Shown piece by piece: positions 4,640 to 60,300 of a stretch of 64,000 nt of DNA; within the stretch, counting starts at the first letter, position 1; every line of letters begins with the position of its first letter. Position numbers and translations under genes: made by a program. Source of the stretch: Tilletiopsis washingtonensis (lineage: Eukaryota > Basidiomycota > Exobasidiomycetes > Entylomatales); the NCBI RefSeq assembly GCF_003144115.1, contig NW_020312003.1, forward strand, positions 222,153 to 286,152, given 5' to 3'. The notes beneath the pieces are model-generated. The model saw nothing but the letters and a program-made list of their open reading frames with translations, was not told where the DNA came from and ran no database searches.

Positions 4640-6801
4640 TCAGAGACGCGGGCCATGGCGACGGCCGTTGTGGTCGACCCAGCTGGCGAGCTTGGAGCGC
4701 AGCGTGATGCCGCCGTGCTCTACCACCGACGGCGACGCACTGTCGGGCGCGTCGCGCGCCTCGGTGCGCTCGCCGATGGGCACGTACTCGCGCTCGCCTT
4801 CGCCGACGTACTGCGCGGCAAGGGCATGTGTGATGAGTGGTGCGACCAGAGGAGATGTGCGTGCGCTGCTGGAGGAGACGCACCAGCTGCTTCGGCCGCC
4901 AGATGCGCTTCTTGGGGTCCAGCATCGACTGTCTCCACGTCGCGAGCCACCCGGAGACGCGCGGCACGGCGAACATGACACAGAAGAGGTCGAGGGCTAG
5001 GGCAGAGTGGACGTGGTGAGCCGCACGCTGGATGTAGCACGAAGCACGCCAAGACTCACGCAGGCCAATGGCGTAGTAGATGACGCCCGAGAAGAAGTCG
5101 ACGTTGGGCGCCAGCTTGCGCTCGATGAAGTAGGGGTCCTTCAGTGCCGCATCGCGCAGCGTGAGGGCCGTGTCGAGCAGAGGGCTGCGGCCCACGACGC
5201 TGAACACCTCATCGGCACACTTGCGCACGATGTGAGCACGCGGGTCCGTCGTGCGGTAGACGCGGTGACCGAAGCCGGAGAGCGTGCGCTCCTTGCGCTT
5301 CACCTTCTCGAGGTACTCGGGCACATTCTCGGGACTGCCGATCAGCAGCAGCTGACGCACCACTGCCTCGGCGGCTCCGCCGTGGAGCGGGCCGTACAGC
5401 GAGGCGACGCCGGCTGCCACGGCGCTGTAGGGGTCGACGAGCGAGCTGGAGACTTGCAGCACGGACGCAGTCGAGGCGTTCACTGCAGCGAAAGGTTAGC
5501 AGACGCAAGGCAGTAGCGGGCCACGGATACTCGCTCTCTGCAAGCGGCAATGACGAAGTCAGTACAAGCTCAGATCAGGCTTGGGGCAGTGCCTTCTCAC
5601 CATGGTCAGCGTGCACCAGCCACAGGCGGTCGATGGCCCTCTCGATGATCGGATTGGGCTAGCGGAGGCGATCAGCGCGGCTGCACGTCGCGATGGCCGT
5701 GCGTCCTCTCACCTTGTACTCGCGCTCGTTGAGCTGGTCGAGGCAGTAGAGGAACGTCCCCGCGTAGCTGAGGCCGGACGGCGCTGCATGACGAGGAGGC
5801 TGAGTGAAGCTCGCAGCGCAGCAGCAACTTGCACGCACGGCGGTTGAAGGGACGGCCCTGGCGGACGCGGTAGGCGGCCGCAGCAAGGATCGGCGCCTTG
5901 CCCTGTATCAAGGCGTTGAGTCAGCACGGTGCCCACTCCGCATGGCTGTGCTCGTGCGGCTCACGATGCAGCGGTAGATCTGCTTGTCCATGAGGCGCAG
6001 CGCCGCCTTGTCGCCCTTGGCGGCGTTGGCGTAGATGTTCTGGCCCTGCAGCGAGGGGTTGGCCTCGGGCGCCAGAGCGCCCAGCGCGGCGAACGACGAG
6101 GCGAGCACGGACATGGGGTGCGCATTGTCGTTGAAGGAGCTGAGCAGCCGCTCAATGTCGGAGTGCAGGAAGGTGTGGTGCATCACCTCGGCCTCCCACG
6201 CCGCCAGCTTGGGCGCCGTGGGCAGCTCGCCGTACACGAGCAGATAGGCGCTCTCCAGGAAGCTCGACTTCTCCGCAAGCACCTCGATCGGGTAGCCGCG
6301 GTAGCGCAGGATGCCCTTGCCGCCGTCGATGAAGGTGATGCGCGAAGTGACGGCGGCCGTGTTGCCGAAGGCCGGGTCGCTCACGCGCAGACCACTGCGC
6401 AGGGCGGCGTGAGCAATGGCGCACATATCGCCAATGGCTGCAGAGGGCTTTGGCCGCGCATGAGCAGGCATCGCTGCACATCAGCGCCGGCAACTGCTGC
6501 TCCAGGCACCTCCACTATGCTCCTCGCCCAGCTTGTGCCTGCCAGAGGCCGCTCGGCGCCAGGCCCATCCACCCACCGCTGCACACGTCCGCCGGCACAC
6601 TCACCCCGCCGTCTCGTCCTCCTCGCGGTCCTCCTGGCCAAAGATGGCGGCGCGCGGTGCGACCATGCGCGAGAAGGCCGTGGCGGGGATGCTGTTGTGG
6701 GTGATGGGCACGTCGTACGTCTTGCCCGTGCGCTCGTCGCGCACGGTGAGCGCCATGCGCGGCGTGAAGCTGCCGCTGCTGCTGCCGTTGCTGTCTGACA
6801 T
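4640..6801 (-). CDS. Citrate synthase, probably peroxisomal or cytosolic type
   Basis: Condenses acetyl-CoA and oxaloacetate to citrate. The protein starts MSDSNGSSSG at 6801 with no obvious mitochondrial presequence. The catalytic residues are all visible: the His in SLYGPLHGGA, the His in GFGHRVYRTTDPR and the Asp in NVDFFSGVIY. Other family landmarks are GYPIEVLAEKSSF, FLYCLDQLNEREY, HADHEMNAST and PRVSGWLATWRQ. At least eight coding exons are needed, including a 3-nt microexon at 5535-5537. The C-terminus is GPRL; PRL is a weak variant of a type 1 peroxisomal signal, so a glyoxylate-cycle role is possible but not shown. The gene shares a 1.07-kb divergent upstream region with the PP2A scaffold gene. 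Identity secure; location uncertain. Confidence 0.93.
5535..5537 (-). other. 3-nt microexon (AGA) of the citrate synthase gene
   Basis: The upstream exon ends CAT G at 5601. Intron 5538-5600 (63 nt) runs GTGAGA to TTGCAG with a CTGAC branch site. Then comes AGA, then intron 5483-5534 (52 nt), which runs GCGAGT to CTGCAG with a CTAAC branch site; the next exon starts TG AAC. With AGA included the protein reads DHEMNAST, the form found across citrate synthases; if it is skipped the protein reads DHVNAST and loses the conserved Glu. Both introns have normal length for this genome. Confidence 0.78.
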
Positions 6802-23043: not shown

Positions 23044-26000
23044 CTAGGCGCTGATGATGCGCGAGCGGTAGCGCAGCTCCGGGTCGCCGCTGGAGCGCCA
23101 GTAGAAGCGCTGCACCTCGGCGAGCGTCGTGTTGAGCGGCAGCACGATGTCGTTGCAGAGAATCTCGATGAGGTCCACCGCGTCGGGCAGGTGCGACATG
23201 GAGCGCACCGACGAGGCCGCCGACGGCGGCGACGAGGCCTCGCCGCGCCGCTTGGCGGCGGCTGCGTTGGCGGCATTGGCGAGTGCAGTCATGCTCAGGC
23301 CGCTCGAGGCGCGGTGCAGCGGCGACGTCGGGTCGACGGACGGCCGCCGAGAGCCGGCGATGCTATGGTTGCGCGAGCTCGACGTGTGCGCCAGCTCCAG
23401 CTTCTCGGCCACGTACGCGCAGCTCTTCTTGATGCGCAGCATGCGTGTGGCCGTCAGACGTGCACCACTACGGACAGAGGGTCAGCCGCGAGAACGCCAT
23501 GGCTGCTGGGCTCTTCGGACTCACCCGCTCGGCAGCTCTGGGAGCGGCACAGGCGTCGAGCCGCTGATGTTGCCGTACCCGCCGAAGCCGTCGGCACGTC
23601 CGCGCAGCTCGGGCGCAATCCACGGCGCGAGCGTAAAGCTGATCTTGCTCGGGTCGCGCGTCGGGCCGCGGTTGTGCAGCAGAAAGTCGAGCAGCCAGAG
23701 TGGTGCAGCAGCCTCGAGTGCGCCGGCATCCTGAGCTACTGTCCGCACGAGGCCACGGTACTGCGCTTGCCACGAGCCGGGCTCGGGCGCTTGCTCCACG
23801 AGGATCGTCGTGTCGGCCAGGAAGGAGTAGGTCGGGATCTCTGACGCCGACGCCGGCTGCACCGGCTGAGAGAGAAGCTGGCGCAGTGCGGCATTCTTGT
23901 CCTCGACCGGCTGTGCGCGGACAGGCGTCAGTGTGGCAGCTCTCGCAGCCCAGCGCGATGCACTCACCGCCACGATTGCAACTTCTGGCTTCTCGTCGGC
24001 CTTAGATGCCGACACGTCCGCATTCTTGTCGCCCTTGCGATTCTTGCCGATGCGCAGGCGGCTCATGAGTCCGCCACTGGTCGGTGCCGCCGCCGTGGTG
24101 ATCGCCGGGCTGGTCGCGCCGGGTGTCGTGACATTGGTCGGAGTCGAAGGCTGCGCTGCGCCGCTCTGGTTCGGCAGGGAGAAGTAGTCTCCGGGCGATC
24201 CGGGAGCGCCTGCGCCGCTTGACCCAGCAGCAGTCCGCGAGGTGAGGCTCGCAAGCCCGCGCGAAGCGGAAGGCGTCAGCGGGGCGGCGCCGGCCGGCAG
24301 CAGCGCTGGCGTCTTGGGCGGCTCGGCAAGGGCGATCGTCATGCCCGGCGTACGTTGCAGGTCTCTAAATGTCCGGCCGTTGGGGATGCTGATCTGCGAC
24401 GGCGGCGAGTGCAGCAGCTTCGGGTGGTCAAGCGCGAGTTGTCCGGGCCGCATCGGCGGCGAGGGGCCGGAACGCAGCTTGTACTCCATCGAGACGAACG
24501 TGTCGAAGAGATTGCGCAGGACGAGCTTGCCCATGTTGATGCGTTGGTCCTCCTTGGCGAAAGCTTGCGGCACGAAGTCGCAGTCGTCGAGGTAGATCTC
24601 GGCGTCGAAGGCGCGCAGCTCCTCGAGATGCACAGAGAGGAGGCCGCCGCGCACGTCGGCCGTGCACCACAGCAGCGTCGCCGCCTCGCCCTCGATGCGC
24701 TCGCGCACGAGATTGAGCGCGTCAGCCGGCGCCACCTCGTCTGAGTTGGGGTCGCGAAACTCGATGTCGCCGGCGTCTCGCGCGGCGGTGACAACATCCT
24801 GCGTGCGAAACACGCCGAGACATGCGCCCTTGACGATGTCCCAGACAGCAACGACGCCGGCCGTGTCGATGGTCAGCACGTGGCGGCGGTCGTTGAGCAT
24901 CGACGTGCGGATGAGGCCATGTGTGCCCTCGATGACATCAGCTGGAGCAGAGTAGAGCGGGATGGCGTCGGGAGCAGCGTCGCGCTCCTCGTATGCTTGC
25001 CGCGCCTCGATGGCCGCATCTTCCGCTGCCTCCTCGTCATCGACGACGGCAGCCTCGTTCGAGGCCTCGCGCGCCAGGCTGTCACGGGGCAGCGGCTCTT
25101 GCTCGGGCGCAAAGCGGATGCTCGCGCTACGCGTGCTCTTTGGCCGCGTCGTCTCGCTAAGCAGCGATGCCGGGATGGGGGACGCAGGCGACATGTGCTG
25201 CGTGATGTCGAAGGACGGCGACGAGAATGGCGGCGTGCTGCGGAACTGCGAGCTGAAGCGCGACGTGGCGCCTCCGCTGTCAGGGTCACGCGAGACCATG
25301 CTGCTAAGGCCAGTCACGGCGGCGTAGCTCTCGCTGGCTGGAGGCGCGAGGCTGACCAGTGAGTCGAAGGGGATGCCGTAGAGCGTGGCAGCGGGGTGGT
25401 GTTGCGAGGCACCTGCCAGCTCGTGCACGTCTGTCGACGTGGCCTGCGACGCGCTGGACAGCGTGTGGCGATGACGGCTGCCCGACGCCGCGCGCAGGTT
25501 TGAGCCAGCAAGGTGCGACGGCACCTGGAAGCGCAGGCCAGGCGAGTCCATCGACTTGTGCGCGAACGAGACGGATGCTGCCGAGGGACTGCCTTGCGCT
25601 GCGCCCGCAGACTTGAGTGCGCTGGTCAGCGACGGAGCCGGCGGCGCGGGAGAGTCCGTGGCGCGAGGAGGGGCGCCAAGTAGCGCCTGCGAGCTAGAGT
25701 TGCCCACGGTGCTGCTGATGGGGTAGAGCGCCTCGCGAGACATGCGCGAAGGCACGTCGTTCCAGCGAGCGACGGACGAGCTGCCGCCGGCAGTCCAGAC
25801 GTACGCATCGTCCTGCGCGATGATCTTGTGGATGCCCATGTTGTCCTTGCGTGCGCGCGGCACGCCCGTCTTGGAGCCCTCGCCGCTGTCCTTGAAGAGC
25901 ACGACGCACTCGCCCTCGGCCGGCTCGGCGCAGCGCTCCCAGTCGACCTTGCACACGTAGCCCATGCGGTCGCCCGAGTAGAAGACGTCGAGCGTCGGGT

Positions 26001-27313
26001 GCGACGAGTGCAGCGACCACACACTCTCGCTGTGGTGCGTAAAGGTGTGCAGGCAGCGCTGCTCGCCCAGCGACCACAGGCGAATCGAGGCGTCTGACGA
26101 GGCACTGAGAAGGTAGCGGCCGTCGTCCGACACGACGAGCGAGCGGATGTTGTCGGTGTGGCCGATGAGCGAAGCGATGCGCTTGCCGCTGCGCGGGTCC
26201 CATGTCCGCACCACGCGCTCGGGCGTGCCGCCAGCGAGCACAGTGCCGGCTGCGTTCGTGGAGAGGGCGTAGACAGACGCCATGACCTCTGACGCTGGCA
26301 ACGAGATGATGGGGTCCTCGCGCGTCTCGCGGATGTCCCATAGCTGCAGCAGCAAGATCAGAGGTGCTAGGCCAGGACGGTCACTATCCTGCTCACCTTG
26401 ACTGTCGAGTCGAAGCCTCCACTCGCGACCCAGGCAGGCTCCCGCGCATGTGTCAGAGCGCGCACGTAGTCGAGATGCGTGCCGAGCAGCTCAGGCGTCA
26501 CGGCGCCACGAGCATCGTGTGGGTTCCACATTCGCACAGAGCCATCTGATCCAGCAGACACGACTGGGGACGGCAACCCAGGGCTCAGCACATGGAACGG
26601 CAGGGCTCTCCTGGCGACTCACGCGTCTGGTTCATGTTGCACAGCAGCATGTCGTTGACCCAATCCGTATGGCTCTGCACGCACTGCCGAAACTTGGCGC
26701 TGGGCAGCCGCTCGCGTGCCCTTTGCGGATCCACCTGCCACGCCTGCTCCATCGGGATGGGCCCGGGCTCCTCGTCTCCATCATCCTCAGCCGACATGCG
26801 GCCGCCCTGCTCCACTCGCATGCCGTTCTCGTCAATGTCTGCACGATCGCGCCAGCTGCGTGCGACACGCGGCGCCCGGCGCCGCATCGGCAGACCGAGC
26901 TCCCAGGATGCCACGAGGCCGTCGCGGGCGCCCGTGTAGAGGATGCCGCGCGGCGTCAGGCCGTCCGAGCCGTCGTCCGAGATGCACGTGCTCGTGTCGA
27001 GTGCCAGGCTCGTGACGGGGAGCGTGTGCTGCGGATGCGGCGCACGCGACGTCTGGGCGTCGGCGGGCGGCGTCGCAGGCGGCAGCGACTCGAGCAGCGG
27101 CTGCGAGCGGCCATGCCGCGGCAGGCCTGGCGGCGGGAGGGCGAAGTAGGGCAGGCCGGACGTGGGCCGCGGCGGCAGCGAGTATGTCACTCGCCGTGGC
27201 GGCGGCGGGACTCTTGGCACCACAGGAGCTTCACCGCCTGCACCGCTGCTGCCAGCATTGGCGCCGTTCGGCGTGGCCGCAGCGCCCGACGGCGTGGAGG
27301 CGGGCAGCGCCAT
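23044..27313 (-). CDS. bun107: WDR48/UAF1-type WD40 protein (Bun107)
   Basis: WDR48 proteins bind and activate ubiquitin-specific proteases (Ubp9 in fission yeast). After a Pro-rich N-terminus the WD blades start: LPVTSLALD, GILYTGARDGLVASWEL, SHTDWVNDMLLC, SAGSDGSVRMWNP, HLDYVRALTHAREPAWVASGG, LWDIRETRED, VYALSTNAAGTVLAGGTPE, GHTDNIRSLVVSDDGRYLLS, SIRLWSLGEQRCLHTFTHH, then NMGIHKIIAQDDAYVWTAGG. A long Ser-rich linker is followed by a late blade (NDRRHVLTIDTAGVVAVWDI) and the C-terminal ubiquitin-like region containing DLLDF-like WLLDFLLHN. The last exon ends ELRYRSRIISA. A 57-nt intron at 23911-23967 has no in-frame stop. Start at the first ATG after an upstream frame; identity good. Confidence 0.88.
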
Positions 27314-28226: not shown

Positions 28227-30628
28227 TTACACCAGCTGCGCGAGCTGGCTCAGTGCGGCACCCTCCTTCGGGAACGACTTGATGAACTCGAGCTGTGCCC
28301 GCGACGCCTGTGGGAAGAAAGATCAGTGCTCTGCAGGCTCCAGCTCGTCGCAGCAGGTTCGGTCTGCTCACGTTCTCGCTGTGAGAGGCAGGCAGTCAGC
28401 GTCGCCGCAGATTGAGCGTCACAAGGCTGCACTCACTAGGTGATGGCGTTCTCCAGCTCCTGGTACGTCCGTGCAATCTTGGCCGACTGCTGGAAGTAGC
28501 CGATGGCCTCGGTGATCTTGCCCTGCTGCAGGCTCAGCTGCGCCAGCGTCGCGACGGCCGTGTCGCAGTCCGGGTCCGTCTCGAGGGCCTTGCGGCAGAG
28601 CGACTCGGCGGTGGGCATGTCCTGCTTCCACTGGAAGAGCGCCAGGGCCTTGTTGATCATCGGCAGCACGCTCGGGCTGTTCGTCTTGCCGCCCTCGATC
28701 TCGATGGCGCGGTCAAACTGCTCGACGGCCTCCTCGAACTTCTGCTGGTCCAGCAGCAGCTCGCCAAAGTAGTTGTACGCCTCCGACGACGACTCAAACG
28801 TGCGCAGCAGCTTCTTGAACTCGTGCATCGAGCGCTCCGTCTCGCCCTTCTTGTAGCGCGCCACGGCGTGCTGCACCTGCGAGAAGATGAACGTGTTGTC
28901 GAGCTCCGTCGACTTCTTGTAGTCCGTGATGGCCTCGTCGAACTCGCTGAGGATAAAGTGCACCTGGCCGCGGTGGTAGTAGATGTCCGGGTCGCTCGCG
29001 TCCGCCGTCGTGGCGCGGTCAAAGTCGCGGAACGCCTCGTCCTTGTCGCCCAGCTCCATGTGCACGCTGGCCTTCTTGACCCACGTCTGCGCGTAGCCGG
29101 GCAGCAGCGTCGTGCTGCGCTCCAGGTCCTCGAGCGCGCCCGGCGCATCGCCAATGACGAAGCGGAACGTGCCGCGCATGTTGAGCGCCATGGCCTCGAG
29201 CGTCTCGCTGCTCAGCTTGTCCTCGGCTGCGTCGTTGCTGAGCGACTCGTTGAGCAACGTGAAGCCGTGCGGGTAGTTGCGCGCCTCGATGGCGTCGTAT
29301 GCCAGCATCAGCTGGTTGTCACCGCGCGACGGCGAGGCCGGCAATTGTGGCCGCGGCTCTGCGGAAGCGCAGAGTCAGCAAGCAGCAGGCGCGTGCTCTC
29401 GAGGCCACTCACTTGACCGGAAGGCCTCGAGGTACGCAGTCACGAACGTGGGCGACGGCAGCCGCGGCTCCCGTGTCTTCGATGCCGCGTCAGTCGCAGC
29501 TGCATGTCTCTGGCAGTAGCACACGCACCCGCAGGATCTCCTTGGCCTTGGACGAGGCAATCTTCTTCAGCACCCGCTCCACGGCGTCGATGGCGCTTTG
29601 GTCCTTGAACTGGCCCAGGATGCCGACAGCGGTGAAGTCTGCGCAGCGTCAGCTCACGCAATGCGCCGCAGCTCGGAGGCAAACTCACCGACCAGACTCT
29701 TGAAGAGCGTCGCACGTGCCTCCTCGCCCTGCGGCCCCTCCTCCGCCGCGTCGCCGCCAAGCTGCTCGCGCGCCACAGCGCGGCGGTTCAGCGCCTTGAC
29801 ATAGGTCGCGTCCATCCGCAGCGCCTCGTCGCAGTCCGGCACCACATCTGCTGGCCGCCCGAGGTTCGAGTAGCCTGTGCGGTAGTCCGGTCAGGAGCTG
29901 CATCCGCAAGAGGGTCTAGGCACAGCGCCGCGGCAGTAGCAGCGTGCCTGTGCAGCTGGGACCACCAGTGCGCAGCGCTTGCCCCACCTCCAGCCGGCAC
30001 TCACAGGCTGCGCGATTGCTGTAGAAGACAGCCTGCGGGTCCGCCGCAATGGCTTTTGTGTAGTGGCCCACCGCGGCGTCAAACTCGCGCCGCGAGTAGG
30101 CCTTGTTGCCGAGCAGCTTCAGTTTTTGCGCCAAGTCCTTGCGGCGGTCCTCCGGAATGCGACGGATGGCGTCCTCAGAGAGCAGGAAGAGCTCCTCTGT
30201 TGGCGCATTGTCAGCGGCATGTGGCTGTGCGCAGCATCGGCCTGCTCACCATCCGTAGCCTCCTCCAGCAGCGGGCCGTCCTCGCGCGCCGGCAGCGAGC
30301 CGGCGTCAGCGGCGGCGCTCTTCTTGCCGCCCTTGCTCTTCTTTTTCTTCTTCTTCTCCCCTCCAGCCGCCGCCTTCTCGGAGGAGAGGCGCGGGCTCGA
30401 GGTGCCCGATGCCGGCGGCGGCGCGCCGCCACGCGTGCGAGGCCCGGCGAAGAAGTAGTAGCCGGCCGCACCGCCGACGGCGAGCGTGCCGAGGCCGAGC
30501 GAGATGGCGAGCAGGCGGTGCTGCTCGACCCAGCGCGAGAAGGACGAAGCGCTTTGCTCGGCACGGGCGCCGGCACGGGCGGCAGTGCGCGAGGCGGCCT
30601 GCGCGGCGGCCTCGGGCGTGGGGGCCAT
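28227..30628 (-). CDS. TOM70: Mitochondrial import receptor Tom70
   Basis: Outer-membrane receptor that hands chaperone-bound precursors to the TOM channel. The N-terminus carries one membrane helix (LLAISLGLGTLAVGGAAGYYF, roughly residues 43-63) and then a Lys-rich linker. TPR repeats follow: QKLKLLGNKAYSRREFDAAV with YTKAIAADPQAVFYSNRAAC forms the chaperone clamp; later repeats include GYAQTWVKKASVHMELG, DPDIYYHRGQVHFILSEFDEA, EAYNYFGELLLDQQKFEEAV and ALFQWKQDMPTAESLCRKAL. The exon ending ELENAIT is followed by a 7-nt microexon (28372-28378), then the last exon (28307-28227), ASRAQLEFIKSFPKEGAALS... to LAQLV and TAA. Without the microexon the join creates a stop. There are about nine coding exons. 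Identity secure. Confidence 0.94.
28372..28378 (-). other. 7-nt microexon (CGAGAAC) of the TOM70 gene
   Basis: The upstream exon ends ACC TA at 28437. Intron 28379-28436 (58 nt) runs GTGAGT to CTCACAG with CTGAC; the microexon CGAGAAC follows; intron 28308-28371 (64 nt) runs GTGAGC to CCCACAG with a CTGAT branch-like site; the last exon starts GCG TCG CGG. The result is ELENAITYENASRAQLEF, in frame to a normal Tom70 C-terminus. Direct joining of the flanking exons gives TA+G, a stop. Confidence 0.82.
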
Positions 30629-32854: not shown

Positions 32855-35287
32855 TTAGGCGGAGGAGAAGTTAAGGGCGCCCGTAACGGCCGCCTGCTGC
32901 TGCGTCTTGGGCGTGGCGTCGACGAGCGCCGAGCCCATGATGCTGTTCGTGCGCGAGTGCGGCGGGCTCTTCACGGCCGGCGGCGGCGCCCGCGTCAGCG
33001 TCGGCGTGCCGGGGAAGGCGCCCTGGCCTGCCAGCGGACTCGACACGTTTGGCTCGTACGGCGACGGCTGGCGCAGTCCGGGCGAGCTTGGGGCTGAGCC
33101 GGCGTCGATAAGCGGCAGCTCGCCATTGGCAACGAGAGTGCGCGAGGGCGTGCGCGACGTGTTGGTAAAGGAGTTGGCAGATGAGAGGCGCGGGCTCGTC
33201 AGACCGCCCTGACGCGAGCCAGCCGTGCTGTCGACGACGACGTCAGACAGCATCGAGTTGCTCGATGCATGCGCGGCATTCGCAGCGAGCGGATCGTACG
33301 CATCGCTGCTGGAGCGCGTGTCCAGCTCGACGCTGTCGTCGTCGCGCGGCATTGGCGTGTCGCGCAGGCCGAGGCCCGTGTTGGCGCTCCCTCGCCGCAC
33401 GGCATCGCGGTACCACTCGCCGCTGTTGCTGCTCCGCCGCGGATTGCCGCCGCCGGGCAGCAGGCCGCCGCCAGGCACGACAGGGCTGCTGCGCATGCCC
33501 ATTCCCATGCCCATGCCGCCCGCACCCGCGGGCGGACGGTTGCGCTCCATGTCGAAGTGGTAGTGCCCGGCCGAGGCCGCCATGGCGGCGGCATGTGCTG
33601 CGCGCACATCGTCGATCGTCGGCAGGTCGAGTGGCGCAGCGGGCGCCGGCGGCGGACGCCGCACCCGAGGCACCTGCTGTTGCTGTTGCTGCTGCAGCTG
33701 TGCGTCGGGGCCCAGCTCGCGCTGCTTTTGCTTGGCGCGCGATGCCTTGGTAGAGGGTAAGGGCGGCGAGAGCGTGTCTCGTGCGTCGATCGGAGCAGGC
33801 ACAAAGGCGCTGCTGCCTGACGCGCCTGCGCCCGTGACTGTCGAGGAGCTGCCTTGCGAGCCAGGCGAGGCGAGCGGGTGCGAAGCGGCATCCTCGCCCG
33901 AGGTCGAAGCGCCAGACTTGTCCTCTTCGATGAGCACTGCCACCTCGGGCTGCGCCTGCGACCCGCTGCCTTCGGCATCGATGGCCTCGCCGTTCTCATT
34001 CACGCGCTCGGACTCGTCGAGCCGCAGAGCAGGCGTCTCAAGCGTCCATGCCGGCTGGCCCGCCGGGAGTCCGATCTCCTCCCAGTTGCGCATCGACCGC
34101 TCGGCCCAGGCCTCGAGCACGGGCCAGCCCTTGTAGTCGCCCGTGAGGCGGAAGCCGGCCGCGCCGCTGCCGCCACGGTCACCGCCGCCAAGGCCTGCGC
34201 CCGAGCCGCCGCCGGAGAAGTACGACTCGTAGCCAACGGTGTCCTCCTCGTCTTCTGAGCCGCTGTTGACCTCCTCCAGGCTCCACATCTCACCGGCCTC
34301 GAGCTCCTCGGCCACAAACTGCAGGAAGCGGCCCCAGCCGCCTTCGCCTTCGCCGCGCCAGAGCACCACCTTGGTGTCGAAGTCGCGGCCGAAGAGAATG
34401 ACCTGTCCGGGCGCGCCGCCGCCTGATGGCGCGGGGCTGAGGTCGACGCCGATGTAGTTGCCCACGTGGTCGGTGATGAGCGGCAGCCAGCCGCGGCAGC
34501 TGTACTCGGAGCGCACCCAGCCGGCCGGGCACGACGTCATCCAGCCGCGCACCTCGTCGTTGGCGCCCGAGGACGGGTCTTCGTCGACGTTGCGCCAGAA
34601 GCGCCACTCCTGCGTGATCTGCTCGATGGAGAGCAGCGGCAGGCCAAAGAAGATGCCGTCGCTGCAGCTCTCTTTTGACTCGAGCTCCTGGCCGTCGTAG
34701 CACAGGTAGCTGTCGCGCACCGCCGGCGGCAACGAAAAGCCAATCGTCATCTCCAGCTCGTCGAGCGCAGAGTCGAGCGCGGGCCAGTTGAGCGTGTCGC
34801 CCAGCTCAAAGTAGTTGTCGTCGCACCACTTGCGGATGCGCTGCCACGTGTGCCGCAGCGGCGGGTAGGCCGTCGACGGGATACTGATATTCGCCGAGTG
34901 GTTGGCGTCCATAGATGGCCGCGCGCCGCCGCCCGACGTGAGCGCCGTGACGCTCGAGGCGGCGCCGTTCTCGGAGCGCCACGGCCGCGCGCTGCCCGGC
35001 GCCGGCGGGTAGGCCTGGCCGAGCGGCCCGGCGCTCGACGGACTGGCCATGCCGCTGCCATTGCCAAAGGGCGACGGCGATTCCTGCCCATAACGCTGGC
35101 TGTACGGCAGCGACCAGGTGCCAGCGCCGCCGTCGTCGAAGTCGCCCAGGCGGCCCGGCGGCGCGCGGCGAGAGGCCGACGGCAGGCCCGAGCCAAAGGC
35201 CGAGCCGCGCTTGCTGCGCGCGCCCGAGCTCGACGAGCTGGGCGCGCCGGTGAAGAAGGCCTGGATGGAGGAGAAGTTGAAGGCCAT
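32855..35287 (-). CDS. SMI1: Cell wall assembly regulator Smi1/Knr4
   Basis: Knr4/Smi1 proteins link cell-integrity signalling to glucan synthesis and bud growth. The coding region is one uninterrupted exon of 810 codons, unusual in this intron-rich window. The SMI1/KNR4 domain spans about residues 140-340: HTWQRIRKWCDDNYFELGDT, LNWPALDSALDELEMTIGFS, LPPAVRDSYLCYDGQE, GIFFGLPLLSIEQI, GWLPLITDHVGNYIGVDLSP and KVVLWRGEGEGGWGRFLQFV. N- and C-terminal regions are Ser/Pro/Gly-rich and probably disordered, with a short polyglutamine run. The start at MAFNFSSIQAFFTG is chosen because the sequence upstream of this ATG, though open, looks non-coding. Confidence 0.94.
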   Translation of the reverse strand: MAFNFSSIQAFFTGAPSSSSSGARSKRGSAFGSGLPSASRRAPPGRLGDFDDGGAGTWSLPYSQRYGQESPSPFGNGSGMASPSSAGPLGQAYPPAPGSARPWRSENGAASSVTALTSGGGARPSMDANHSANISIPSTAYPPLRHTWQRIRKWCDDNYFELGDTLNWPALDSALDELEMTIGFSLPPAVRDSYLCYDGQELESKESCSDGIFFGLPLLSIEQITQEWRFWRNVDEDPSSGANDEVRGWMTSCPAGWVRSEYSCRGWLPLITDHVGNYIGVDLSPAPSGGGAPGQVILFGRDFDTKVVLWRGEGEGGWGRFLQFVAEELEAGEMWSLEEVNSGSEDEEDTVGYESYFSGGGSGAGLGGGDRGGSGAAGFRLTGDYKGWPVLEAWAERSMRNWEEIGLPAGQPAWTLETPALRLDESERVNENGEAIDAEGSGSQAQPEVAVLIEEDKSGASTSGEDAASHPLASPGSQGSSSTVTGAGASGSSAFVPAPIDARDTLSPPLPSTKASRAKQKQRELGPDAQLQQQQQQQVPRVRRPPPAPAAPLDLPTIDDVRAAHAAAMAASAGHYHFDMERNRPPAGAGGMGMGMGMRSSPVVPGGGLLPGGGNPRRSSNSGEWYRDAVRRGSANTGLGLRDTPMPRDDDSVELDTRSSSDAYDPLAANAAHASSNSMLSDVVVDSTAGSRQGGLTSPRLSSANSFTNTSRTPSRTLVANGELPLIDAGSAPSSPGLRQPSPYEPNVSSPLAGQGAFPGTPTLTRAPPPAVKSPPHSRTNSIMGSALVDATPKTQQQAAVTGALNFSSA

Positions 35288-36846
35288 TGCGGGCTGTAGG
35301 CAGGGCGTCAGACGTGGCCCAGAGATGCGAGCCAGCGCGGGCGAGGTGTTGGCGAGTCTCGGGCTGTGGAGTCGCGCACCAGGCACCAAGGCTACATCTG
35401 TGCTGGCGGTGCAGCAGCCTAGCAGCTCCGAGAGAGAAGGCGACGATGCCTTGTGCCCATGCAAAGTCTCCTCTCGCATGCGAGACACGGGCACAGAGAG
35501 CAACACCATCCGTGCACGACGTCGCCTGCACTCACCGAGCACGCTAGGAGCGGCCAGCTTCAAACAGATGCGACGAGAAGCTAGCTGCTGAAGGGAGCTG
35601 CGAGCGAGGCAGCCTCTACGCAGGCGAAGCAAGGGCCGTGCGAGCAGCCGCGTCGCGGATGCAGCGGGGCGCGTGGGCGAGGCAGGTGGTGCGCGGCGAC
35701 GAGCAGCTCGGCGGACGCGCTCGGCGACGGCGCACGCCAGAGAGCCGGCGCGCGGCGAGGTGAAGAGCGCACAGACGGAGCGACGGCGCAGTGCTGCGTA
35801 GGGTGCAGCAGGAGGCAGCGGCGAGGGCGTGAGGCGGCGTCAAGGAAGCAGGATCGTGGTCACGAGAGGACTTGGCGGAGCGTCGGTGCGCGGCGCGACG
35901 TGCGGTGCGCCGTGCAGCAAGCGCAAGGCAAGCGCGCGCAGGCCGAGCCAAGCGCGCCCGCCGCCGCCGCCGCGACGGCAGGCCGGCACAGGCTGCGTCG
36001 CAGCGGCACACGCGTCTCGCTGTCGCTCTGAGAGGCAAGCACGCCGCGCCGCATCCGCCGCCGCCGCGCTGCGCCCAGCCGTGCATCTGCAGCCCAGCCG
36101 CAGCGGCGTCTCTGTGCGCGGTGCGGTGCGCTGGCTGCAGCGCCGCGAGCACAGACATGAGAGGGCACACGGCCCGAGGCTCCCTGACCTCTCATGCGAC
36201 AGGCGCTGCTGGGCCCTGCGCTCGGCACGCCGTGAGATTGAGCAGCACAGCGCAGACGAGCGGCTGCGGGCGTCGTCGATGCCCCGCTGGCCCATTTGAT
36301 TTGGCTTCCCCTTGCGCCGGCGCCGCGAGAGAGGTCATCGCGGCGACGAAGATGCGCCGTCGAGCGCTCGAGGGGACGCTCGCACGGGGCATCCCCAGTA
36401 CGCCTCGTCCTCGCAACGTCCAAGAAGAGCACTTCTGTCTCTACACTCGCTGGTCCTGCGGCACCTCCAGTCCTCCTTTGCCGCCAGGGACGGGTGCGAG
36501 AAGGACGCGACTTGTGTGGGGCTGAAGAGAGGCCCAAGGCAGTCGGGTCTGCCCCTAGAGCAAGCTCGACGCGGACAAAGCGCCAGCGCAGCAGCGCCGC
36601 CTTTAGCGTCCTCCTTGTCCGGCTGAGAAGCTCCAAACGGGCGCTGCCGCGCGATGATCAGACGCATGACGAGCAGCTCAAGTCTCATGGACGGGCGCTG
36701 CTGGCTCGGCTGTGGGAATGAGGCTCGGATCGACGAAGCGCAACAGTGTCGATCGCACCGCAGGCTTCAGATGGTCTGGCAAGCGCTTCTCTCAGAGCTC
36801 GAGCACACCGCAGTCGAACACAACCGTGAATTACACACGCCCGCTC
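35288..36846. promoter_or_regulatory. Upstream region of SMI1, no gene seen
   Basis: 1,559 bases lie between the SMI1 start and the proteasome gene stop, both on the - strand. Several open frames overlap on both strands but all translate to Arg/Ala-rich low complexity. A long promoter or an unrecognised non-coding RNA would fit; nothing specific is visible. Confidence 0.4.
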
Positions 36847-41796: not shown

Positions 41797-44700
41797 TCAT
41801 GCGTCGACGGGTCCAACAAGCCAGGAGTTGTACGCGCGCAGCTTGCCCTCGCTCGTGGGCAGGCTTGGCGCGCCGGCTCTGAGCATCTGTGCGGTATGTG
41901 CGTATGTCTGCAGCGCCGCATCGACGGGCTGGTGCGCGCTGGGCCAGCCGTCGTCGTCCTCGCCGCCGAGGCTGTACTGTGCCATCATACGCGCCACGGC
42001 GAGCGCCTCGCCGGCGGCCAAGTCCGCGCCGACGGCGTACAGCGCCGCGTCCTCGTCTGCCACGCGGGCGCCGAGGCCGCGCACGCCGCACTCGGCCTTC
42101 TCGCCGAACTGCGAGAGCCAATTGTCGTACTCGCGAGCCTCGAGCGCCGAGACGCTCGGCGCCGTGAGGGCGTCGACCTGGCGTACCAGCTGCACTGCCG
42201 ATGGGACGACTGGGTGCTGTGCAAGGCGCTCTGGGTCGCCCCAGTTCGGCCAGGCGTCGCGCTGCATGGAGGGCGTAATTTCGATGGACGCTGCGCCGCC
42301 AGCCGCTCCGCTCGATGTGCCGTCGTCGGAGCTGGGCGAAGCACGACCGCCTGCTGTGCGCATGGAGCTGCGCCGCTTTGACTGCCCGTCGCGCTTGCCA
42401 TCGCGATTGAGCGACATCCAGCGGCGCACGCCGCCGATGAGAGCTCTTGGGCTCTCGCTGCCGCTCGGCTTGGGGCGCACGGGCGACGAGGGGGTAGGAG
42501 CTGAGCCTCCAGGCACGCGTGCCGTGAAGGGGCTCAGAGTGAGGACTGCGCGCTCGACGGGCACCGCGTTGACCTCGGTCATTGAGGGTATTGACGCGCT
42601 GCGGGCGATGATCGACGAGCCGTTGCTCGTCTTGCGCGCGTGCGAGTTGCTCGACGGGCTCTGCGCAAAGCGCGAGGCCGAGACGTACGCGGCTGTCGAT
42701 GGCGGCCCGATCGCAGCCTGCTGGTGCTGATGGACGGCGGTCATCTTGAACGCGTGATGCCGGAGCAGGCTGGCAGCAGAGCGTCAGCGACAGGAAGCAG
42801 CAGGAGAGGGCGTCTTGCACTCACTCGGTAAAGAGGCTCGGCCTGTAGTACTCGGCCCAGAAGCCACGGTCCGCCGTCACGACATCGTTGAGGCGCTGCT
42901 GGCGTTCCTGCACCGTGCCACGATCCTCGAGGTACTCGGGCGTGTACCAGTTGCGGTAGCTTCGCCGCTTCGGCGCCAGCTTGCCGTGTGCATCGAGCAG
43001 GCGCGGAGCAGGGCGCGCCTCGGCCGTGTCCGGGTCGATGCCGAGGAAGAGATTGATCGCTGCCTGCTTGTCTGCGTCGACGAAGGAGTTCGAGTAGTAG
43101 CGCTTCAGGCCCTCGAGCATGTCACGCGAGTGCGACGTCCACTGGTTGACCTTGCGGTACGTCTCCATCGTGTTGACCAGGTGGCTGCCGCCGTACTGCA
43201 GCGCGATGGTGTCGCCCAGGTCGTGGTACATCTCGGTGAGCATGTCCACTGCAGCGCTGTCGAATGGCAGCGAAGGGCTCTCGAGCAGGCCGAGTGCATG
43301 CAGCTGGTGGCCTAAGGCTGCCTTGCCGATGACGAACTGCGCGGCGTTGGTGCGATCGAGACAGTCGACGCAATTGACGCGAGCGACACCGCTCTGGAGC
43401 AGGATCGTCTCGCGGCGCGGGCCGGCAGTCTTGACGTTCCGTGTCGCAGCCGACTCGAAGAGCGCCGGCTCGGGTCCCGAGTGGAAGAAGCGCGTGGCCT
43501 CGACGGTGCCCTCTGCAATGTCCTCCAGCACCCCGATGACGTCCTGGTCGTGGCTCTTGCTCGCGCGGCTCATGTCCCACGCGATGTAGCGCAGGCGCTT
43601 GTCGGCCGGCAGGAACTGGTTGAGGTATGCGACGCACTCGCCGAAGGCGTGCAGCAGCTTGACCTCGCGCGGCTGCTTCTCTTTGCTCTTGATGAGGTTC
43701 AGCACGATGAGCGGGTGGCCGTAGCGGCGCAGCATGTCGTCGAAGTGCAGCGCGGCGGACGAGAAGTACGGATCGACGACGGAGATCTCGATCGGCGGTC
43801 GCGGCGACATGTTCGTCGAGTCCTGCGTCCAGTAGATCGGGATGCTCCCGCGATGCATCACGTACGACGTGTAGCGCGGGCTGACGCCGAGCGCAGGGCC
43901 TGCATCTGCGCCGCCGTCGTGGGCCTCGGTACGCAGCTTTGCCGAGCGGGCGGGCGCGTAGAACGGCGTGGTGAGGCCATCGGCCACGATCTGTTCCGTC
44001 TCGACGTCGTTGGCCACGTGTCCTTCTTCGTCGGTGCCGCGCTTGAGGAACCGAGCACCAGCGAAGTGGCGCGAGCGCCGCGCGAGGAGCGTGATGTGCA
44101 CGGTGCGGTTGAGCACGCTCAGCTTGGCCTGGTCGACGAAGCCGTACACCAATGGCAGCACCCACTCGGATGCTGCGTCGATGCTGGCATCCGCGGCCGA
44201 CTCGGCGTCGCGCAGCGAGGCGTCAGGCTCGTAGCGCGGCCGCTGCAGGTGCTCTGATGCACCAAATGCGGGCACGAGGAGGTGATGGTTCCAGACGAAC
44301 TTCTCGTTGTAGCCCCAGGCCGTGCTACTGCGCGATGGCACCGCGTGTCGCTGCTGAGCGATGGAAGGGCATGCCGTCTCGCTGCCGCCGGTCAGGTTGT
44401 CCTGCAGCGTCTTGGTGAGGTCGTACGTGTAGGAGAAGTAGAAGTTCTTCGACAGGTCGACCTGCTTGAACGTGTGCAGCAGGCGCGCCTCCTCTGCGTC
44501 CTTGGCCTTGGAGCGGCCCGGCACGCTCGCGAGCACAGACGGGTGGCACACGGGAATGATGCGCGTGTCGTCGCAGTGGTACACGTAGTGCCCGCCGATG
44601 AGCGCCACGACGGAGCGCGCTGATATCAGCACCATGTAGTAGCCGCTGGTGAAGCGGATGAAGCCGACGATGCCAAAGAAGCGCCCGACCTCCTTCAGGC

Positions 44701-45544
44701 CGCCCGTGGAGCGGTTGCCCTCGGCGATCATGTCAAGCAGCTCGCTCACCTGCTGTCTCGTGTACACGACGCGGTCCGATGTGAGGTTCAGCTCCCACTG
44801 CGTGCTTTCCGAGGTCGAGGTTGCGGCAGCGCCACCATCGACACCCAAGCCCGTCTCCGCAGCGTGGCCTGCCTCCTTACTGCTGCCTTCAGCTGCGCCC
44901 GCCGAGGCATCAGGCCGGCCCGAGCTGCGCGGCTGCGCCAGCGTGCGGTCGACCTTGAGGATGCGGAAGCGCGTCTGGGAGGTATTGAAGGCTACGAGGT
45001 AGAAGCGCGTCTTGGTCTCCCAGAGCGTGAATCGCTTCAGCTCGCCGAGCCGGCCAGGCTCGGCATGCTGCGCCCGCGCGCTCTGCTGCTGCGCCTGCGT
45101 GCGCGGCGGCGGGTGCGGCGTGCCGACGGCGCTGGCGGCAGACTGCGGCGCTGACGATGCTGCCGTCGACGAGCGCGTTCGGGCAGTGGACGGCTCTGCG
45201 CTTGAGCTCGCGGTGTGAGCCGGCGGCGCGAAGACGAGCGAGGCACCGCTGTCGCAGCCGGCGAGGTCGAGCGGCTCGGGGGCGCTGCTAGGCGCGACAT
45301 GCGGCGCAGGACCTGGCGCGGCGCTGGAGAGCGGCGCGAGCTTCGCCAGCGACGTCGGCGGCGTGAGCGTCAGGGCTGCCGTCAGGTTTGAGGGCTGCGG
45401 CTGCGACGATGCCTGCGTGGGCGTCGGCGTGCGGCGCTGCTCGTCTTCGCCGTCTGATGCGGCAGGCGGCGCGCGAGCTGCATCTGTGCCCAGCTGCTCG
45501 TCGGGCGGCACATCGGCCGCGCCGACGCCTGCGCCGGCGGTCAT
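41797..45544 (-). CDS. FIG4: FIG4-type phosphoinositide 5-phosphatase (SAC domain)
   Basis: Fig4 removes the 5-phosphate of PI(3,5)P2 and supports Fab1 kinase at the vacuole or endosome. Exons 45544-42825 and 42769-41797 give about 1,230 residues. After a Pro/Ser-rich N-terminus of about 165 residues the SAC domain starts: LKRFTLWETKTRFYLVAFNT, FRILKVDR, GRFFGIVGFIRFTSGYYMVL, LSKNFYFSYTYDLTKTLQ, EFNHHL-like WNHHLLVPAF, and the catalytic CX5R motif NCVDCLDRTNAAQF. Typical Fig4 downstream blocks follow: MYHDLGDTIALQYGGSHLVN, DMLEGLKRYYSNSFVDADKQ and AINLFLGID. The second exon holds a Ser-rich insert and ends with a conserved-looking block (PNWGDPERLAQHP, LEAREYDNWLSQF). The start is the first ATG in frame. 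Identity secure. Confidence 0.94.
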
Positions 45545-45939
45545 CGGTGGAGCACGGCGCTGCCTGGCTGTCCTGGCAGAGAGGTCGAGAGAAGCGAGCG
45601 CGATGGGGTGTGGTGGAGGAGACGCGGCGGTCCGAGCGCCGCCACGCGTGTAGCGTGGAGGCACAGAGCAGATCAGACGCCGCGCGGCAGCCTCACGCGC
45701 GACGCTCCTGCATCGTCCTCAAATGCAGTCCACTGCAGCTGGCCTCGCTTCGTGCTTCACGAAGTGAGACCGTGACACAGTTCACATCAGACTTGGCACA
45801 TTCAAGTGTGTACGCATAGAAGAGATCGGGAACAGGACATTGGCGCAGTCACGTAGCACGGAACAAGGAGCTTCTCGAAGCGGACTGCGGTGAAGCAAGA
45901 CGGAAGCAACAGGCATAAAGATCCGGCACCGAGGGTGCT
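45545..45939. promoter_or_regulatory. Upstream region of FIG4
   Basis: 395 bases lie between the FIG4 start and the stop of the next - strand gene. The right half is the least GC-rich DNA nearby, as expected of an untranslated or promoter region. No gene is seen. Confidence 0.5.
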
Positions 45940-52571: not shown

Positions 52572-54628
52572 ATGCCTTCCGGCGTGCCCGCCCTCGAGGA
52601 CGAGACGGTGATCGTCGGTGCGTCTGCGCCCGGACCCGAAGCGCCATGTGCTGTCTGTGATCCATTGCTCACGCCTCTGACTGCAGTGCTTGGCGCCTCC
52701 GGCGACCTTGCCAAGAAGAAGGTGCGTGTCGGCCGGCGCGGCGGAGTGGGATGCATGTGGAGCAAGGGAGCACTCGATGGGCCAGCAGGTAGCTGAGGCG
52801 GGCCTCGGCTCAATGCGAAGCGCGCCTGGGCACCTCAGAGCTCCTGGAAGCAGGCTGAGAAGAGAGAGACAGCCAGCGCCTGCTGCTTCGTCTGGCTGCT
52901 CCTGGCGGCAGAGGCCAGACACGCTGCCAGCGAGACCCTGCCGCGCGCCGAGGGCCCGCACACATGCGCAGTGCTGACCGCCGCGCTCAGACGTACCCGG
53001 CGCTCTTCAACCTCTACCGCCTCGAGCTGCTGCCGAAGGGCACGCACATCGTCGGCTATGCGCGCACCAAGATGGACAAGCCCGAGTTCCACGAGAAGAT
53101 CTCGGCACACTTCAAGGACGCCGACTCGGGCGAGGGCGCCAAGGCCAAGAAGGCCTTCCTCGACATCTGCACGTACCAGCCGGGCGCGTACGACAAGGAC
53201 GAGGCGTTCCAGGAGCTGAACAGCGCCATGGAGAAGATCGAGAAGGAGGGCGGCAGCAAGAACCCGAACCGCCTCTTCTACATGGCGCTGCCGCCCAACG
53301 TCTTCACCGTCGTCGCCGCCGGCCTGAAGAAGAACTGCTACTCGGAGAAGGGCCACAACCGCATCGTGATTGAGAAGCCGTTCGGCAAGGACCTGGAGAG
53401 CAGCCGCGAGATGATGGGCAAGCTGAAGGACCTGTGGAAGGAGGAGGAGACGTTCCGTGAGTGTCAGGGCGCGCTGCGGCTGTGTGGAGGCGCTATGCAG
53501 CGTGCGGAGCTCGCGGCTGACGCGCCGCGCTGCACAGGCATCGACCACTACCTCGGCAAGGAGATGGTCAAGAACCTGCTCGTGATGCGCTTCGGCAACC
53601 CCGTCGTCGACGCCGGCCTCAACAACAAGATGGTCGACAATGTGCAGATCACGTTCAAGGAGCCGTTCGGCACCGAGGGCCGCGGCGGCTACTTCGACGA
53701 GTTCGGCATCATCCGCGACATCCAGCAGAACCGTGAGTGTGCCGGCGAGCGCGGCTTTGACGGCGGCGAGCCTGGCCGAGCGCCGTGCTCACACGCGCCG
53801 AGACAGACCTGTCCCAGGTGCTCTCGCTGCTTGCCATGGAGCAGCCGAAGTCCTTCTCGGCCGAGGACATCCGCAGCGAGAAGGTCAACGTGCTGAAGGA
53901 CGTGGCGGCGATCAAGAAGGAGGACGTGCTGATCGGCCAGTACTCGGCCGCCGACGGCAAGCCGGGCTACAAGGACGACGACACGGTGCCCAAGGACAGC
54001 AACTGCCCGACGTTTGCCGCACTGACGCTGTGGGTCAACAACGCGCGGTGGAGCGGCGTGCCGTTCATCCTCAAGGCCGGCAAGGGTGAGCAGCAGGAGT
54101 GTGACATGGCTTGCGCGCGCAGTGCTGACGCGCACGCCCGCAGCGCTGGACGAGGCCAAGGTCGAGATCCGCATCCAGTACAAGGACATCGAGACGGGCC
54201 CGTTCAAGGGCCTGCCGCGCAACGAGCTCGTGATGCGCATCCAGCCCAACGAGGCCGTGTACTTCAAGGTCAACGCCAAGACGCCGGGCCTGCACATGGG
54301 CACGCTGCCCGCCGACCTGGACCTGACGTACAAGGAGCGCTTCGAGGATGCGCGCATCCCCGAGGCGTACGAGGCGCTCATCCTCGACGCGCTCAACGGC
54401 GACCACAGCCAGTTTGTGCGCGACGACGAGCTCGACTACGCGTGGAAGATCTTCACGCCCATCCTCAAGTCGATCGACGCCGGCGAGATCAAGAACGAGC
54501 TGTACAAGTACGGCTCGCGGGGGCCGGCGTCGCTCAACGAGTTCCAGACGCGCTACGGCTACGTGCGCGACAACACGTACGCATGGCCAAAGACGTCCGT
54601 CTCCAAGGAGACGAAGACGAAGATGTGA
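52572..54628 (+). CDS. ZWF1: Glucose-6-phosphate 1-dehydrogenase
   Basis: First and rate-setting enzyme of the oxidative pentose phosphate pathway, a main NADPH source. Six exons. Landmarks: the NADP-binding VLGASGDLAKKKTYPALF, assembled across two introns; YARTKMDKPEFHEKI; NRLFYMALPPNVFTVVA; NRIVIEKPFGKDLES; the substrate-binding RIDHYLGKEMVKNLLVMRF, whose Arg codon is split by an intron (C|GC); FGIIRDIQQNHLSQVL; LTLWVNNARWSGVPFILKAGK; RIQPNEAVYFKVNAKTPG; and YAWKIFTPILKSID. About 510 residues, normal for the family. The CTGACG branch sites of its introns are very regular. Identity secure. Confidence 0.97.
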
Positions 54629-57379: not shown

Positions 57380-60300
57380 ATGCCCACCCTCTTCGCCCGG
57401 CGCAGCAAGGGGCCGTCCAGCAACGGCCTCTCGTCGCTGCGCTTCAACCAGCACCAGCCCGTGTCGTCGGCGGACCTGCTGCAGAGCGCCGCAGGCGACC
57501 AGGATGCGCGCCCGCTGCCGCCCGTGCCCTTCGAGCTGCCGCCGCAGGGCACCGACTACTCGATCCCCTCGCACGACTCCTTCAAGATGCACGAGTTCGG
57601 CGCCCTGCCGCCGCCGCGTGACATCGACGAGAAGCCACTGCCGCTGCCGGCACCGCAGCAGCAGCAGCAGCAGCGAACAGCACGCTCGATGACTTCGCGC
57701 TCGACCATGCCGATCGCGTCGCTGCGCCCGGCCGTCAGTGCCGCGACGATCAGCGCCGGCGGCCCGCCCACGCGGGCCAAGACTCGCTCCAGCATGGCCA
57801 GCGGCTACTCCACCGGCATCACTCACTCCGGCTTCGGCCACCTCTCGGGGCGTGCCTCCCTCGAGCACGTCGAGCCGTACTCCTACGGCTACTGCCACGC
57901 CAGTCTCGATGCGCAGGTGGACATTGCCGTCGTCGTGCAGCTCGTGGGCGCGCTGGGAGAGCAGATTCGGCAGCGGGGTGAGTGGCAGCCGCAGGTCATG
58001 CGGGTCCTCGCTGCAGCTGGACCTGTCGCGCATGCGCTCATGTGCCGCTCTCGCAGGCCTGGACTCGCCTCTGATCTTCTCCTCGATGGCGCTCGACGTC
58101 TCGGCGAGCAACACCTGCTCGCTGATCCGCTCCTTCATGTCCTCGCACTCGGCAGCGGCAGCGAGCTCGCGATCGCGCGGCATGCCTCCTTCGGCCCTGC
58201 CTGCCGCGTTCCTGAGCGAAATCCGCTTCGCGAATCCGCACGATCTCGCTGCGATGCTGAAGTGGGCGCTGGCACGGCTCGGCCGCGTCTTTGCCGTGCC
58301 TGTGCCGGCAGTGCCCGGCGAGGGCCCGAACCGCAAAGGCGTGGTGGAGGAGGACACGATCTTCGTGCAGCAGCGCGGCTTCTTGCAGCTTGATGCGTAC
58401 CTCTCATGGCGCGAAGACGAGCGGAGTGAGTGCTGCGATCTCACCCCGCCTAGCGCTGTGCTCATGCGACCATGCAGCCCGGCAATTTCCGGTCACTGCG
58501 TTCACGTCCTTCGTCGATGCGGTGATGGACCCCGCGGCAGCCGCACTGCTGCGCGCCCTGCTCTCTCTGCTCTCCTCGACGGCGGCATACAGCCTGAAGA
58601 ACGGCATGACGCCGTCCAAGCTGGCGCGGCTGTTCGGGCCTCTGATCTTCGGCCTGCCCGAGGATGAGACATTCGAGCGGACGTACGATGCGTTCGTGCG
58701 CGCCAGCAACGCCACGGAGCACCTGCTGCTGGCCTACATCCGCGATGCGTCCAGCACCGAATCGCTGCCGGTCCGCCTGAACGACCATCTGCGAGGCTAT
58801 CCGTCCATGCTCTCGAGCGACATCAGCCGCCCGGCGCGGCACGTGCGCGGCGTGCCCGTGACGCAGATCGAGCGCGTGGTGCGCCTCTACAGCGCGGACC
58901 TCGTGCAGAGCGCATGCGAGCTGGACCTGAGCGCCACCTGCGAGGAGTGGGCTGCGTGCTGCAGCACTCAGGAGAGCCTCGGCCGCGAGCCGCAGCTGTC
59001 CGATCGCTTCCGGAAGCTGCTGAACTTCAGAGGAAGCGCTGTCCATGCTCGGAGAAGCGAGGCCAGCAACGGCGCGGGCAGCAGCTTGCTCGTTCGACAG
59101 CTCTCATCGCACTCCAACGGCCGCTCGACCGAGTCCGAGCTCGAGACGCACGGCTCGCTCGCCTCCAAGACATGGTCCGACTTCTCGCTCGACGGCTTCG
59201 CGGCGCCCGACAAGTCGAAGCTCGCCTTCGATCTGCGCGAAAGCGAGCGCAAGGCGCGCATCGAGAATCGCGGCACCGTCAAGTGGTCGCAGTTTGAAGA
59301 GACGGGCTTCGTCGCCACAGACGAGGGCCTGCGAGAGGTGCTGAGCTTCGACGACGGGCTGCAGGAGGACATGGCACGCTGGCCTGGCGAGCGCGCCCAG
59401 ATGCTCGAGAAGATCCGCGCCCAGGCGAGCAAGCTGCCGCCGTTCCCCTACGACACTGCGCCGCACTGCGTTGCGAGCCCGCTGCGCGGCGAGATCTCGA
59501 CCCTTGGCGCGGGCCAGTGGAACGAGACGCCCATCTCGCGCATGGACGAGATGTTCCCCGAGGTCGTGGCCGACTTTCTGCTTGGCAATGGCTGGAGCAA
59601 CCGCGACGAGCTGACGCATCGCAACGCCAACTTCGTCGTCGTGCAGTACAAGAGCCGCGCCGCGCCAGAAGTGCAGGAGGCCTCGGCAGACTCGACGCTC
59701 GGCGACCAGTCGCTCCTCTCGCGCAACGGCGAGGCGCCCGTCGATGACCGCACCAAGGCGGCGTGGTTCATCGTGCAGGAGCTCGTGCCGTCGCAGTACC
59801 GCGCGGACCTCGATGCCGCGGGACGGCACAAGGGTCGCAGCAAGCCCAGCCTGCGCAAGCTGAACATCTTCAAGCGCGTGCGTCGGGAGCGCGATGAGAA
59901 TCAGCCCGCCGACCCGCACGATCCGTTCACTGCCGGCGCAGGTGGGGCCACGCGGCATCTGCGCATTCATGGCCCGACCAGCCCGGCGCTGAGCAGCAAC
60001 GGAGCGATGGCGGCGGATCTCGAGCGCGCGGGCACCTACGCCTCGTTCCGCACCCAGACGCAGCGGCGCACCGACGCCGGAGTGCCGCCCGGCATGACGT
60101 ATGAGCCCGGTCCCGACTTCATGGAGACCAGCTCGAGCAGCATCCTGCACTCGCTGCGGTCCAAGACGAAGCGGGGACGTGGACGAGGCGCCGACGAGGC
60201 AGCTTTGCCAAGCGCACCGCCGCAGCAAGGCATTGCGCACACTCAGTACGACTCCTTCTCCTCGTCGGACTTCGAGACTCGCAGTCTGCACGATCCCGAG

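Follow-up and report, generated by a model that had tools for sequence, protein, structure and literature searches.

Locus and gene content

A citrate synthase gene lies at positions 4640-6801 on the minus strand of the window, the whole 64-kb stretch of DNA that was analysed (GC content 68%), which is part of an assembly of 18.7 Mb in 32 contigs. The hand gene model comprises nine exons, all on the minus strand, that join to a protein of 509 aa: exon 1 (6605..6801, with the ATG at 6801), exon 2 (5965..6394), exon 3 (5839..5902), exon 4 (5713..5783), exon 5 (5601..5658, ending in GAC CAT G and coding for H-A-D-H), exon 6 (5535..5537, the three bases AGA), exon 7 (5060..5482, starting with TG AAC GCC for N-A-S-T), exon 8 (4884..4996) and exon 9 (4640..4810, including the stop). 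A splice model agrees with it, giving exon 9 as 4643-4810 and omitting the stop. Pfam family PF00285 (Citrate_synt) was found above cut-off on two exon ORFs, those of exons 2 and 7, one on each side of the 118-nt stretch that separates exons 5 and 7.

Five neighbours in the window were named by Pfam and are ordinary genes: a WD40-DUF3337 protein (23524-26490, minus), an SMI1/KNR4 protein (32858-35839, minus), a SacI-domain protein (42824-45718, minus), glucose-6-phosphate dehydrogenase (52859-53893, plus) and an Msb1/Mug8-domain protein (58261-61959, plus). Nothing was reported in the window by an Rfam scan run with gathering thresholds, nor by ARAGORN under bacterial settings, with which intron-bearing tRNAs could be missed.

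Among the matches listed, the best named single-domain relative of the protein is the citrate synthase of Ceraceosorus bombacis (67% identity over 97%), followed by those of Tilletia species (62-65% identity). In a single-gene tree of 25 chosen homologues and the query, some other branches of which are odd, the protein groups with Ceraceosorus (support 0.82) and then with Tilletia (0.96), which makes an Exobasidiomycete the probable host. The protein terminates in PRL, which we take to be a PTS1-like peroxisome signal; the same ending occurs in two of the best 120 of 8,000 scored homologues, and SKL, AKL, PKL or SRL in 101 of these 120. Because PRL resembles the latter endings, the enzyme, which combines the PF00285 match with a PTS1-like C-terminus, is probably peroxisomal. 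A genome profile search revealed no second gene copy of this type among the listed PF00285 matches, the others of which, on contigs C19 and C21, are mitochondrial- or ATP-citrate-lyase-like by eye. The mitochondrial-type paralogue on C19 carries the motif HGDHEGGN uninterrupted, as judged by eye, and thus provides no parallel case of a microexon.

Anatomy of the 118-nt stretch

The 118 nt between exons 5 and 7 (5483-5600, minus strand) were claimed in the first-pass annotation to consist of a 63-nt intron, the three bases AGA and a 52-nt intron, and this division is borne out by the gene model. The 3' end of exon 5, GACCATG, lies at 5601, and exon 7 opens with TGAACGCC at 5482. Intron 5 (5538..5600, 63 nt) is of the GT-AG type and runs from GTGAGA to TTGCAG; the A of its branch-like CTGAC, at position 5559, is 21 nt away from the exon. 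Intron 6 (5483..5534, 52 nt) runs from GCGAGT to CTGCAG, and the A of its branch-like CTAAC, at position 5496, is 13 nt away from the exon; with a GC donor, a CTNAC-like branch site and a YAG acceptor, intron 6 is a GC-AG intron, a start that the first reading had passed over. The GC of this donor is preceded by A, and the donor scores 3.7, as against 5.2 for the donor of intron 5. Donor, branch-like site and acceptor are thus present in each flanking intron, and both introns are of normal size for this genome (median 60 nt), as had been stated. With complete putative spliceosomal introns on both sides, AGA belongs to the microexons as predicted from the sequence, i.e., internal exons of at most 15 nt.

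The three bases supply positions 2 and 3 of a Glu codon and position 1 of a Met codon. With AGA the protein reads DHEMNAST (H-A-D-H-E-M-N), without it DHVNAST, still in frame. A nested twin intron (stwintron) was considered and rejected on the basis of protein conservation. In a stwintron the whole stretch is excised and nothing of it remains in the mRNA; here, excision of the entire 118 nt would cost the protein its conserved Glu.

Conservation of the glutamate

Glu follows HADH in all of the best 120 of 8,000 scored homologues. In an alignment of the 118 of these that have 470-530 residues it is present without gap or change of length in every one (118/118), followed by V, L, M or I. The predicted microexon thus adds residues that the homologues keep, and the assertion that this Glu is conserved both in residue and in length holds. 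Glu is likewise found in three solved relatives, and it comes after the His that in pig citrate synthase binds oxaloacetate. The protein P0001, an 868-aa tandem double citrate synthase, has this motif with Glu in its first copy and with Gly in its second.

That AGA is the source of the Glu had been proposed from the two alternative readings, DHEMNAST and DHVNAST; it was examined with a script that enumerated every join of the 118-nt stretch keeping exons 5 and 7 in frame. Among these exhaustive in-frame single joins, with any intron ends, none gave HADHE-x-NAST. Those that keep the length place Ala-Val, Gly-Val or Gly-Glu at this site, and none of them combines GT or GC with AG. Only one in-frame join has GT-AG ends: the undivided 118-nt intron, which yields HADHVNAST, one residue short. 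The family profile scores the protein at 818.1 bits with AGA and 808.0 bits without it; two other length-keeping readings score 814.2 and 814.1 bits. No single join gives the Glu, and the anatomy of the introns favours the split over one 118-nt intron.

Splice model and statistics

The splice model was trained on the 64-kb window and 200 kb of contig C6 (8,089 bases of the latter masked as N), with the citrate synthase gene left out of every refit. A first, unconstrained training was discarded: by round 4, GC accounted for 498 of the 1,424 donors it called, and its internal exons of at most 3 nt numbered 111. The model was retrained with GT donors only, exons of at least 30 nt and a stronger intron cost. 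The prior for GC donors (3%) and the intron penalties were set by hand by the analyst. Since the seeds came from the citrate synthase gene itself, the fact that the untrained model already called AGA was not counted as evidence; the same seeds also began round 0 of the retraining, the later rounds of which were refitted on other genes.

The 337 model introns in the 264 kb have a median length of 60 nt, and 238 of them measure 45-75 nt; five fall at 110-126 nt and 73 at 100 nt or more, so that an intron of 118 nt is not out of range for this genome. GC donors occur in seven of the 337 (2%), intron 6 included. One of the seven has ACG before GCGAGT and lies elsewhere in the window, at about 2700 (minus strand), and others are in L010-L029.

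Splitting the 118 nt around AGA gains 14.7 log units, with no charge for the extra intron. For comparison, the inner part of the stretch was shuffled 20,000 times with the donor hexamer and the last 30 nt held fixed. Some split of the form AG-NNN-GY with arms of at least 40 nt was present in 41% of the shuffles, and a Glu-coding one in 6.7%; such a bare split is not rare by chance. The score of the AGA split was reached in two of the 20,000 shuffles, in none of them with Glu, and was matched in none of 23 other real introns of 95-260 nt, the best of which scored -0.26.

At intron penalties from -7.5 to -13 the splice model gives exons identical to the nine of the hand model, AGA included; AGA is lost at -15 and stricter. 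When donors are restricted to GT, or exons to a minimum of 10 nt, the model joins exon 5 directly to exon 7. The call of AGA therefore depends on accepting a GC donor, as GT-only donors skip it. The view that no annotation program would call such an exon does not stand: a small splice model calls it if GC donors and short exons are allowed.

Other predicted tiny exons in the genome

The splice model, with introns of up to 700 nt, was also run for microexons over the 264 kb and a further 50 kb outside the training sequence. Internal exons of at most 9 nt were predicted five times among 250 in the 264 kb (AGA included) and once among 48 in the 50 kb. An oligoribonuclease gene (L020, C6 101956-101959, plus) is predicted to contain a 4-nt exon, GTGT, which contributes to the W-C of DWC and is gapless against the RNA exonuclease 2 homolog 6n6i, with an excess of one residue later in the model. 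In an amidase gene resembling fatty acid amide hydrolase (L010, plus), a 5-nt exon, CTACA (C6 5450-5454), and a 14-nt exon (5339-5352) are predicted in a row, both gapless against two solved relatives. The predicted 7-nt exon CGAGAAC of a Tom70-like gene (window 28372-28378, minus; model 28230-30628) is bordered by GT-AG introns of 58 and 64 nt; its skipping would cause a frameshift, and the stretch is a gapless but weak match to solved TOM70. The 9-nt exon CATTATTGA predicted in a subtilase gene (L023, C6 133480-133488, minus) forms part of the IIDTG motif and is gapless against 3f7o. The fifth, in the sequence not used for training, is a predicted 7-nt exon, ATCACAT, of a FAD-synthase-like protein with a molybdopterin-binding domain (L037 6063-6069, C19, plus).

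All five (4, 5, 7, 7 and 9 nt) are gapless against at least one solved relative. Four of them (4, 5, 7 and 7 nt) have lengths not divisible by 3, and their omission would therefore break the frame. Six further exons of 11-14 nt were called, including ones in isocitrate-dehydrogenase-like and pirin-like genes; apart from the 14-nt one in the amidase gene, they were assessed by visual inspection at most.

The number of calls depends on the permitted intron length. With introns capped at 260 nt, 13, 11 and 11 exons of at most 9 nt were obtained in the 264 kb at three intron penalties. Six of the 11 found at penalty -9 vanish when the cap is raised to 700 nt, leaving five, and on this model the six are taken for pieces of longer introns; they lie in four genes, named by eye without a search: RMND5/GID2-like, HIT-like, calpain-like and Rer1-like. 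Outside the window, four predicted exons of at most 9 nt in 250 kb extrapolate roughly to 300 genome-wide (95% Poisson range about 80-770).

The pattern CTGAC-N6-22-YAG-NNN-GCGAGT has four sites in the 18.7-Mb assembly and five in a reversed-pattern control; its GTGAGT form has four, with two in the control. On these counts the bare motif does not exceed its controls. Seven of the eight sites were not called as exons by the splice model, AGA being the sole one called, and two that were examined closely (L030 and L031) sit within open coding sequence. Nothing here points to an abundance of 3-nt exons built exactly like AGA.

Interpretation and alternative readings

Sequence anatomy, protein conservation and a statistical excess, each observed for AGA, agree with one reading, in which we have high confidence: AGA is a genuine internal exon of 3 nt, most likely used constitutively, and the gene that holds it encodes a citrate synthase of peroxisomal type. 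Each flanking intron is short, complete and of usual size, and may be recognised across the intron (intron definition) whatever the length of the exon. Only 3 nt would separate the acceptor of intron 5 from the donor of intron 6, too little for two spliceosomes at once; for this reason the introns are probably removed one after another. The spliced product would regain the Glu that comes after HADH in the homologues. From the sequence we infer the inclusion of AGA in the mRNA, its constitutive use and this sequential order.

A variant that overlaps with this reading, and that we consider unlikely, is that AGA is a regulated cassette with included and skipped forms; the skipped form, in frame and probably encoding an inactive enzyme, might then act as an on/off switch. 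The weak GC donor of intron 6 would suit such regulation, and since skipping keeps the frame, the skipped form would not betray itself by an early stop. The four of five other tiny exons whose lengths are not multiples of 3 favour constitutive use in general.

Much less probable is a single 118-nt intron with true loss of the Glu and a protein reading HADHVNAST. No other single GT-AG join preserves the frame of both exons, the splice model picks this one with GT donors only, and its length is plausible, as 73 of the 337 model introns measure at least 100 nt. Against it stand the Glu of all 120 listed homologues and the constant length of all 118 aligned ones, and it offers no explanation for the acceptor, branch-like site and donor inside the stretch, which score highly.

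AG..GT frames for other small exons do occur in the 118 nt, and it is very improbable that one of them is used in place of AGA. The other 3-nt split with arms of at least 40 nt, CGA before GTATCC, scores -3.1, and a 9-nt exon that shares the acceptor and precedes GTGGCC scores -5.4, as against 14.7 for AGA. Two more were noted by eye: AGAGCGA (7 nt), ending at GTATCC, causes a frameshift, and CTT yields Ala-Leu instead of Glu and has a first intron of 32 nt, far under the confident ones (1st percentile 48 nt; model floor 35 nt). Equally improbable is that the assembly is wrong here or the gene copy decaying, for although the sequence rests on a single assembly, the other exons are all intact and join to the 509-aa protein with 67% identity over 97% to that of C. 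bombacis, and the listed PF00285 matches hold no second copy of this type.

Comparison with known ultra-short exons

Exons of 1 nt and 3 nt are already in print; AGA joins a known kind, and the further tiny exons predicted here are new. Exons of 3 bp in fungal mitochondrial genes are presumably bordered by group I or II introns, not by spliceosomal ones.

The first-pass annotation had placed an exon of 3 nt at the physical limit of recognition, a view that reports of 1-nt exons in Arabidopsis APC11 (PMC4674806) and Fusarium CYP621A (PMC12940212) contradict. The closest parallel is that of the Fusarium CYP621A P450 genes, whose 1-nt exon, self-described in the extract as the first for a fungal gene, was traced in 20 orthologues (24 genes) and 18 RNA reads. 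Like AGA it is fungal, lies inside a conserved motif, was betrayed by a doubled intron length and is needed to rebuild the motif. Unlike AGA it comes from an ascomycete, measures 1 nt instead of 3, leaves a broken frame when omitted, and stands between AG and GT, where AGA stands between AG and GC. In basidiomycetes, P450 genes of Phanerochaete (PMC1184071) resemble the present gene in introns of 45-55 bp and small exons; the shortest reported in the extract is 6 bp, with no 3-nt case there.

Micro-exon 8 of Drosophila homothorax (hth) has exactly 3 bp, as AGA does, and 3-bp exons of troponin T and NCAM are named in the same extract (PMC7392893). The hth exon belongs to an animal gene, begins a longer alternative exon, is alternatively spliced and lies between domains, whereas AGA lies inside an invariant motif. 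In plants, 1-nt exons are described for APC11 (Arabidopsis; PMC4674806) and VPS55 (PMC8831610). That of APC11 is ultra-short and constitutive, as AGA appears to be, and intron definition with removal of the introns one after another was proposed for it (PMC4674806); both plant cases differ from AGA in being kept across many species and backed by RNA evidence. The 1-nt-exon form of VPS55 is also lost through intron retention in some species, according to the extract of PMC8831610.

An extract of PMC12308204 describes a 1-nt exon with a mitochondrial group II intron on either side, and attributes 3-bp exons in fungal mitochondrial genes to Xavier et al. 2012; the latter share with AGA the 3 nt and a fungal host, and differ in being mitochondrial. 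Of the remaining fungal extracts, that for Trichoderma describes a regulated microexon of 20 nt (PMC11121469), the "3-bp exon 2" of Ganoderma (PMC8379801) seems to denote a fragment of exon 2 within a construct, and that of the Cryptococcus paper PMC3990503 names no tiny exon. In the open-licence literature, surveyed mostly by listing, no 3-nt nuclear exon of a fungus was recognised, and the word microexon was absent from the smut-group literature among the matches listed.

Biological significance

Among nuclear exons proposed for fungi, AGA would rank with the shortest; it lies in a motif of a central enzyme and would account for a conserved residue that is unexplained by any single intron. 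The wider pattern matters more. On the predictions of the splice model, tiny exons may be a standing feature of this genome, some 300 in number, down to 3 nt in length and situated in catalytic or conserved motifs, a generalization that we regard as evenly balanced between true and false. A compact genome with many exons of 3-9 nt would be a good test bed for the smallest exon that a spliceosome can handle under intron definition, and would call for caution when genes are annotated in this group of fungi. If the generalization is true, the spliceosome of this organism would work by strict intron definition, with exon length almost irrelevant, and standard annotation would misread hundreds of genes in such genomes.
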